Source: Candidatus Zhuqueibacterota bacterium (GTDB lineage: Bacteria > SM23-31). From it: DNA of 5,864 nucleotides. Within the stretch, counting starts at the first letter, position 1. Every line of letters starts with the position of its first letter. Under the pieces are notes generated by a model that was not told the DNA's origin, ran no database searches, and saw only the letters and a list, made by a program, of their open reading frames with translations. The stretch lies in the NCBI GenBank assembly GCA_022562855.1, contig JADFON010000136.1:1-5864 (forward strand), given 5' to 3'. This document shows, one piece after another, positions 2,246-4,474 of this stretch. A program made the translations under genes and the position numbers.

Positions 2246-4474
2246 ATGTTCGATACAATTCACAGTTCGTCTGTCGATTTAATGCTGGAAATACCGGAGC
2301 ATATATCATCCTCGTTAAAGGATGATAGCATTCTTGATGAAATTAAGCATGAGGATGCACTCGATAAGTTTGATGATTATGAATTTCTGAATCTAATAAG
2401 GTCGGAAATCATCGATTTAACGGAGAAAGATGATGATGACAAAGATAAAATTGCCCAACAACTGCCCTACGCCCCGGTTAAACAGAGAATTTTCAGCTGG
2501 ATACTACGGTCGCTCGGTTGGCGGTATTTTCATAATGTAACGGCAGGCGAGTACCTTGAAGATATTGATATCGACGAGTCTGCGAAAGTAGTATCCGACG
2601 AAGATGAACTCGTTGAGGAAGCCGGCGCCGGCAAGGGGGAAGCGAGAGACGCAACACTTGAAGAAATTCTGACTATCGAAAAAGAAGAAATAAGCCAGAT
2701 TTTTCGGGTAGCAAAAAGGTATTTCCTTACTGATTTGGTCCACAAGATCAGAAAGCGATTTTTCAAAAGCAATGTCGTGATCGGATTTGATATCGGGACG
2801 CAGAATGTAAAGTATACACAGATTCGCAGAGATAAGGGAAAAAACATCCTTGACCGCTACCGGATGCAGGAAATAGGCATAAAATCTAATGATTCAAATG
2901 AAATAATTCGAAGCAAAACTGCCCTCGCAATCCAAAAAATCATTCCGCATGATATTTTGCCGATTGCCGATGTGTCCGTTTCGTTCAGCAGGCTTCCGGT
3001 GTTTATGAAAACCGAGAAGCTGCCTTCCATGGATAAAAAGGAATTGCATCAAGCTGTTATGTTCAGGGCGCAAAAATTAGTTCCGGAGACAATAAAAAAT
3101 CCTGAGATAACGTACGAGATAATTGAAAAATCCGAATCGAAAGAAGAGTCGATGCTCTTGATCCGTGTATACATAATCGACAAAACAGAATTATCGGGAT
3201 GGATACAGGTATTGAACGAATGTGGAATCATACCGGAAAAAATCACCTTGCCGCATATGTCGATTCAGGAAAATCTCCGTAAGTTTTTTCCGGCTGCATT
3301 GAAGGAAGGAGTTGTGGTATTCGACTTCGGGGGTGAACATTCTCAATTAACTTTCGCGGATAAAGGCAGTATAAAACTTGTCAGGGAAATAGAGACGGGC
3401 GTAAGCGATTTCTTAAATGCGCTGACAGGAACCATTCATCTCGAGGACAGAACGATCGAGGTGAACCGTGAATTGGCTGAAGAATTGTTAAGAACATATG
3501 GAATATCCGATAAAAACAGCATAGGGTACACAAAAGAAAAAATTCCAATTGCAAGGATTGGAATATTACTCTTTCAGACTGTGGAAAAACTCGTACATGA
3601 ACTTCACAGAAGCATCGATTTTTACCGGTCGAATTTCAACAATGTCTCCATTGAGTCAATATTGGTTACCGGAGGCGGTTCTGAAATAATAAATCTCTTT
3701 GACCTGCTTCAGAATCAATTCGGTATACCCGTAAAGGAGTTCTCATATCTCCAAAAACTCACCATCGGCAGAGATATTTCCGAACTGGACCAATTGGTGC
3801 AGGATGCCAATTTACTCTGTGGTTCCGTAGGTTTGGCGCTTGATAGCACCAATGAACTTAATCTGCTGTCCAAGAAAGACCAGCAGCGGAAATTAATGAA
3901 TTTGGCTGCATTGGGAATTGCAGTGACATTCGTGACCATGCTGGCGATAATCCTAAATATTTCGATTGGTCTGGGAAGTGATTACAGCAATATTTTATCT
4001 CTACAACAAGATGCAAACCGGGAATTAAGGAGCAGACAACCACGCAGGAGCGAATATGCCACCCTGCTAAACCAGGTAAGTAATGCCTCGAATCTGCAGA
4101 TTTTAATTGAGGAACAACTTGGATCGAAAGAGGAGAATGATTCCATCGAAAACATTTTGAAATTGCTGTCACTTTACAACTATTCCGATAAAATAATAAT
4201 CAATAGTATCGTCATTAACGAACGAATGTTAGAAAATATTAGTGCAGGAAATACAATTCAGACAATTTTAGCGCCTCGTTCTATTATCTTAAAGGGGAAA
4301 ACACTTGCCGAAAACATAAATAACTCTATCGTGGAGTATATTTTATATCTGAAAGGAATTCCGTACTTTGACCGGGTTGAAAAGCAGTCTTATGAGGGTG
4401 AAGATTTCAACGACCAAAGATATTTTCAAATTTCGCTATACTTAAAGGGGACGCCGAAAAATGGTAATAAGTGA
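2246..4474 (+). CDS. pilM: PilM-PilN fusion: actin-like ATPase plus membrane-anchored PilN domain, with acidic N-terminal extension (742 aa)
   Basis: This is a type IV pilus (or type II secretion-like) inner-membrane assembly protein. Residues 1-175 are a variable, acid-rich extension with two basic-aromatic helical segments (79-97, 152-174). Residues 176-534 form a PilM/FtsA-type actin-like fold: phosphate-1 motif GFDIGTQNVK (180-189), an SHS2-like insert (about 248-345), phosphate-2 motif VVFDFGGEHS (357-366) and adenosine motif VTGGGSE (474-480). All three look intact, so ATP binding is expected. Right after the PilM fold, ELNLLSKKDQQRK (537-549) resembles the INLLP-type N-terminus of PilN, the peptide that docks onto PilM in separate-protein systems. 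A single membrane helix (about 551-577) and a PilN-like periplasmic domain (578-742, ending in the F-D-R-V then Y-F-Q-I-S-L-Y strand pattern) follow. PilM (about 350 aa) plus PilN (about 190 aa) plus the extension accounts for the length. The architecture recalls GspL of type II secretion, but GspL lacks these nucleotide motifs. Start: stops at 2222, 2228 and 2237 leave ATG 2246 as the first choice; no clear ribosome-binding site is seen, and ATG 2282 is an alternative. Confidence 0.87.
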   Translation: MFDTIHSSSVDLMLEIPEHISSSLKDDSILDEIKHEDALDKFDDYEFLNLIRSEIIDLTEKDDDDKDKIAQQLPYAPVKQRIFSWILRSLGWRYFHNVTAGEYLEDIDIDESAKVVSDEDELVEEAGAGKGEARDATLEEILTIEKEEISQIFRVAKRYFLTDLVHKIRKRFFKSNVVIGFDIGTQNVKYTQIRRDKGKNILDRYRMQEIGIKSNDSNEIIRSKTALAIQKIIPHDILPIADVSVSFSRLPVFMKTEKLPSMDKKELHQAVMFRAQKLVPETIKNPEITYEIIEKSESKEESMLLIRVYIIDKTELSGWIQVLNECGIIPEKITLPHMSIQENLRKFFPAALKEGVVVFDFGGEHSQLTFADKGSIKLVREIETGVSDFLNALTGTIHLEDRTIEVNRELAEELLRTYGISDKNSIGYTKEKIPIARIGILLFQTVEKLVHELHRSIDFYRSNFNNVSIESILVTGGGSEIINLFDLLQNQFGIPVKEFSYLQKLTIGRDISELDQLVQDANLLCGSVGLALDSTNELNLLSKKDQQRKLMNLAALGIAVTFVTMLAIILNISIGLGSDYSNILSLQQDANRELRSRQPRRSEYATLLNQVSNASNLQILIEEQLGSKEENDSIENILKLLSLYNYSDKIIINSIVINERMLENISAGNTIQTILAPRSIILKGKTLAENINNSIVEYILYLKGIPYFDRVEKQSYEGEDFNDQRYFQISLYLKGTPKNGNK
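4444..4450 (+). promoter_or_regulatory. Ribosome-binding site of yjbQ inside the end of pilMN
   Basis: AAAGGGG lies 10 bases before ATG 4461, within the last codons of the PilM-PilN fusion. It supports the overlapping start and suggests translation coupled to the upstream gene. Confidence 0.5.

Follow-up and report, generated by a model that had tools for sequence, protein, structure and literature searches.

An orphan PilM–PilN fusion protein with a docking-type motif at the junction in Candidatus Zhuqueibacterota

The window analysed here is a stretch of 5864 nucleotides and makes up one entire contig; the metagenome-assembled genome from which it comes is 2.5 Mb in size and 80% complete. 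The window contains a 742-codon ORF (2246–4474, + strand) without an internal stop. A preliminary description made from the DNA alone had read this frame as PilM running straight into PilN in one polypeptide, and had suggested that the protein may be an intermediate between type IV pilus and type II secretion systems. The locus raises the questions of whether both proteins are present in full, whether such a fusion is exceptional, and what role this copy would have.

Architecture of the fused protein

The features of the window are given below, with the evidence for each in brackets.

2246–4474, + strand: fused PilM–PilN protein, 742 aa (single ORF; PilM_2 Pfam match; PilN profile–profile match; fused orthologues)
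2246–2767, + strand: N-terminal extension, acidic, residues ~1–174 (alignment; pLDDT)
2768–3850, + strand: PilM actin-like domain, residues ~175–535 (PF11104; PDB PilM chains; fold match; motif columns)
3854–3892, + strand: PilN-type docking motif ELNLLSKKDQQRK, residues 537–549 (alignments; start of the end-to-end PilN alignment)
3902–3967, + strand: transmembrane helix, residues ~553–574 (hydropathy scan)
3968–4471, + strand: PilN-like periplasmic domain, residues ~575–742 (hhalign to the PilN set; model secondary structure)
413–2200, + strand: TPR and DUF2393/FxLYD protein, 595 aa, possible partner (Pfam/NCBIfam; orthologue distribution)

The PilM domain is matched by Pfam PilM_2 (PF11104) over residues 180–534 and profile positions 1–339 of 340 (53.5 bits, cut-off 27). 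In NCBIfam, the Amuc_1101 PilM-like family and pilM match best, though neither reaches its curated cut-off; the score is 105.5 against 133 for TIGR01175 and 111.5 against 650 bits for NF045709 (Amuc_1101), which places the protein below membership of that family. PDB PilM chains are matched with E values from 1.7e-39 to 8e-23. The fold comparison, which covered the PilM part, gives 2ych_A, the PilM chain of the Thermus PilM–PilN complex, as the best match (Z 27.8 over 315 residues); other PilMs and FtsA come next. The three ATP-site motifs, described earlier as intact, are all present (DIGTxxxK 182–189, DFGG 360–363, and TGGG 475–478), with D182, G184, K189, D360, G362, G476, and G477 in the motif columns. 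K189 aligns with the lysine essential for ATP binding in Thermus PilM (PMC6325625). Mutation of Lys-26 in Thermus PilM abolishes ATP binding, yet stimulation of the motor PilF persists in the mutant (PMC6325625); intact ATP motifs alone therefore say little about mechanism. The extension in front of the PilM domain is probably mostly disordered, as the pLDDT of ~20–35 over residues 1–170 suggests, and alignment identifies in it a short helix-like N-terminal motif, L-x-x-x-R-L-L-E, common to the operonic paralogue described below.

The motif ELNLLSKKDQQRK falls inside the stretch (3848–3976) to which the preliminary description had assigned a retained docking motif, and it is indeed found there, before the membrane helix. 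Its INLLP-type core occupies residues 538–541, and N539 is invariant in the family alignments. Pfam PilN (PF05137) gave no match at E ≤ 1 with the window protein, nor did the GspL profiles TIGR01709, PF05134, and PF12693 in the Pfam/NCBIfam searches. Residue 537 to the end is, however, co-linear with a profile of 10 stand-alone PilNs (182 aligned columns; probability of 97.7 and E of 1.5e-12 in hhalign), when the C-terminal part of the window protein is combined with two orthologues as the query; used by itself, the window protein reaches 17 bits with the PilN profile, compared with a maximum of 6.6 bits among 200 shuffles. This profile–profile alignment identifies the part as PilN by the co-linear order of motif, one helix, and periplasmic domain. 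Profile searches, which had been suggested as a check, thus recover PilM through PilM_2 and PilN through profile–profile comparison, with the Pfam PilN and GspL families unmatched. As the C-terminal part aligns from the motif to the end with stand-alone PilNs, the protein is a whole PilM followed in frame by a whole PilN, and the alignments place the join at the position expected for the PilN start codon. As regards the ferredoxin-like periplasmic fold of PilN and PilO, the structural model shows an alpha-beta-beta-alpha-beta-beta order near the C-terminus with moderate pLDDT. The pLDDT of the full-chain model is 51 and that of the model without the extension 62, both being low over residues 514–645, around the junction.

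Orthologues, operonic paralogue and genomic surroundings

Six species make up the phylum sample, one relative being deposited as 'candidate division KSB1'. The single window protein as the query of the genome contigs gave no match; the family alignment as the query gave three relatives and a distant Omnitrophica match. Full-length copies of the fusion, N-terminal extension included, occur in G002 (42% identity) and G005 (~26%). In G003, the PilM part and the motif are present, and the contig ends just before the membrane helix. The motif of the window family is less canonical (NLLS, NILP, NFLP, NFIY), and 10 residues separate the last PilM glycine from the motif asparagine.

The neighbours of the fused gene are the TPR/DUF2393/FxLYD gene upstream and yjbQ and mtnA downstream (Pfam/NCBIfam), with no gsp operon around it. 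Pilus genes do not adjoin the window-type fusion in any orthologue contig, with pilO, pilP, and pilQ absent there. What sets the window copy apart locally is its orphan position together with an N-terminal extension of ~170 residues. Full-length orthologues of the TPR/DUF2393 protein are confined to the four phylum genomes that carry the window-type fusion; the frame of the relative is interrupted in G003, and in G005 the gene is on a separate contig from the fusion. The protein encoded at 413–2200 has neither a signal peptide nor a membrane helix. PilT-like ATPases, assigned by frame length (~350–377 aa) and N-terminal sequences, are present in the same four genomes, and neither PilT nor a window-type orthologue was found in the remaining two; with only six incomplete genomes, this co-occurrence is suggestive only. 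Assigning the orphan as the missing PilMN of a pilus operon near a second PilT (L073) was considered and rejected; next to that PilT lie an M99-type peptidase and an L,D-transpeptidase instead of a secretin and PilO.

A second fused protein, more distant from the window protein than the orthologues, is encoded in an operon in three phylum genomes (L034, L035, L036). In G002, this operon contains minor pilins, an ExeA-like ATPase, PilO/GspM-like and PilP/GspC-like proteins, a secretin, and PilT. The operonic paralogue exceeds the Pfam PilN cut-off (23.1 versus 22.8 bits). It has the same fused architecture as the window protein, falls in the same clade, and carries the short N-terminal motif; it differs in its more canonical junction motif (INLLP, VNLVP, LNLLP), its shorter N-terminus, and its PilO-like/PilP-like/secretin/PilT operon. 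The paralogue of the window's own genome (L034, G000:C104, minus strand) has one in-frame TGA at ~4409. TGA is the stop of the window gene itself, and the one in L034 may be a sequencing error or mark a gene that became a pseudogene recently; were it real, the orphan would be the sole intact fused copy seen in that genome.

Distribution and origin of the fusion

PilM_2 matches were found in 199 of the 241 genomes surveyed, most of the frames being ~350 aa and many longer than 500. Frame length alone was rejected as a sign of fusion, as a 528-aa PilM (L082) has a separate pilN after it; long frames therefore also had to show a membrane helix downstream of the PilM domain. Of twenty long PilM_2 frames examined individually, only L082 was separate, and the protein at L095 was classed as fused by hand, from its junction motif and a helix at the contig edge. 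When the long frames and the first survey are combined, fused proteins occur in ~23 genomes outside the phylum, in addition to the three other phylum genomes (G003 partial). In most of those outside the phylum, a recognisable motif is retained immediately ahead of the helix, in the forms INLLP, VNLLP, TNLLP, ANLLP, INILP, ISLLP, IDMLP, and INLLS, with NFRK or DLRK in GspL-like fusions; the distance from the last PilM glycine to the motif asparagine is mostly 10–19 residues. Of the fused proteins, 26 of 31 have the lysine that corresponds to K189, and 32 of 33 have the phosphate-2 glycine. Since a kept motif and ATP site are usual among fused relatives, neither is special to the window protein.

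At the phosphate-2 position (window D360, nucleotides 3323–3325), the residue is Asp in 24 of 33 fused PilM domains, whereas 23 of the 28 separate ones have Asn or Glu. This bias could relate to ATP turnover or could reflect ancestry alone. One genome, G031, encodes two fused PilM–PilN-like proteins ~10 kb apart (L044, 6233–7921 and 16,392–17,927), the second with degenerate ATP motifs.

A tree was calculated from 61 PilM domains. As the taxa were partly picked for long frames, frequencies should not be read from it. One fused clade (support 100/98) unites the window family with the operonic paralogue and L038, and 20 other fused proteins form a second (93/94); the best tree requires at least five changes between the fused and separate states. 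The window protein groups with its own phylum's pilus-operon paralogue rather than branching basally in the GspL-like group. The AU test does not reject a joint clade of the window group and the 20 GspL-like fusions (p-AU 0.20). A single origin of all fusions is neither shown nor excluded by these sequences.

Known systems and the role of the orphan copy

GspL/PulL of type II secretion is the textbook fusion of the PilM–PilN type. The preliminary description had likened the layout to that of GspL, correctly: GspL, PulL, and EpsL, like the window protein, combine an actin-like cytoplasmic domain, one membrane helix, and a PilN-like periplasmic domain in one chain. Unlike GspL, the window protein scores as a PilM and lies outside a secretion operon. 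PilM and PilN are also fused in one polypeptide in the type IV pili of Clostridioides difficile (PMC6916266). That system, likened here by description, differs in its monoderm host, and a different PilM–PilN contact motif has been proposed for monoderms (PMC6916266). The Amuc_1101 family (NF045709, 608 positions) is the best NCBIfam match of the window protein (residues 175–538) and of several fused relatives, but the match of the window protein is limited to the PilM part. A designed counterpart is PDB 5EOU, an engineered Pseudomonas PilM–PilN(1–12) chimera (PMC5805733), in which the PilN residues MARINLLPWREE are placed on the PilM C-terminus (chain residues 361–372) in the order of the natural junction. 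In 5EOU, ~15 residues separate the last PilM glycine from the motif asparagine, as compared to 10 in the window protein, and the membrane and periplasmic parts are absent. As the chimera has the same order, docking of the junction motif in the PilM groove of the fused protein is plausible, whether in cis or in trans. Overall, the earlier interpretation is only partly right. It had contrasted the fusion with systems in which PilM is a separate protein; with GspL/PulL, C. difficile (PMC6916266), and ~23 further genomes, PilM–PilN fusion with a kept linking motif is already known and common, and the finding is mostly ordinary. Fused forms are abundant in under-studied phyla, and the split pair of model organisms is only one arrangement.

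The orphan most likely acts as a second platform protein for type IV pili. We regard it as an inner-membrane platform protein, similar to GspL, that serves a type IV filament machine, and as an orphan duplicate of the phylum's pilus-operon PilM–PilN fusion (probability roughly 0.75). The PilM profile and fold, the full PilN, the fused orthologues and paralogue, the occurrence of this architecture in many further genomes, the supported clade with the operonic paralogue and L038, the ATP motifs with K189, and the co-occurrence with PilT count for such a role; the lack of adjoining pilus genes, the less canonical motif, and the small basis of the PilT co-occurrence (six incomplete genomes) count against it. 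The fusion would have arisen when an ancestor with adjacent pilM and pilN lost the pilM stop, joining a complete PilM to a complete PilN. By analogy with the family, the PilM domain would bind ATP in the cytosol and contact a PilB/PilT-type motor, and the junction motif would pack into the PilM groove of its own chain or of a ring neighbour. The single helix and the periplasmic domain would pair with a PilO-type protein and couple the motor to pilin assembly. The fusion would fix the PilM:PilN ratio at 1:1. A tentative extension, which we consider rather unlikely, is that one pilus machine switches between two unlinked fused platforms (for example, for extension and retraction, or at two cell sites), the orphan being the one with a cytosolic extension and a co-inherited TPR/DUF2393 partner.

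The lack of pilus neighbours, the ~170-residue extension, the weakened motif, and the conserved neighbouring TPR/DUF2393 gene that co-occurs with the orphan would also suit a protein that has left the pilus machine and become an actin-like, membrane-anchored scaffold in some other process, possibly together with the TPR/DUF2393 protein; as the PilM ATP motifs, the motif asparagine, and the whole PilN-like part are kept and the fusion co-occurs with PilT, we consider this unlikely. That the protein is a genuine evolutionary intermediate linking the separate PilM/PilN pair to the GspL of type II secretion, as had been proposed from the intact ATP motifs, is very improbable. Such a status would account for a GspL-like layout combined with PilM-like ATP motifs, and a joint clade with the GspL-like fusions is not rejected by the AU test. 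However, the motifs are intact in most fused proteins and so do not mark an intermediate, no GspL profile is matched, and the best tree separates the two fused groups and places the window protein with the operonic paralogue. Separate genes in close relatives had been named as the sign of a sequencing error that removed a stop. A metagenome contig invites suspicion of a lost stop codon or a faulty assembly join, and separate pilM-like and pilN-like genes do exist elsewhere in the phylum (L064–L068), but these lie at a different, distant locus, the window frame is undisrupted, and the same full-length fusion is found in two independent genomes, with a third consistent up to the contig end. The fused orthologues refute the artefact reading, whose remaining probability is negligible.

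As a second platform protein, the orphan copy would be a modest starting point for studying the duplication and specialisation of pilus platforms, and a single chain with both partners at a fixed 1:1 ratio makes the PilM–PilN contact testable.

The separate genes at L064–L068 form a third locus, near rsmD and coaD. The pilM-like gene is degenerate and has lost the PilM ATP motifs, and the PilN-like protein starts with M[IL][DKR]INLLG, MIDINLLG being one instance. At another locus, with GspE/CpaF-type ATPase genes (L072, 6421–10,135; L103, 297–4127, is the neighbouring part), a 539–559-aa protein with a PilM-like start is followed by a one-helix protein. The 539-aa form has no Pfam match, and L072 also encodes a secretin.
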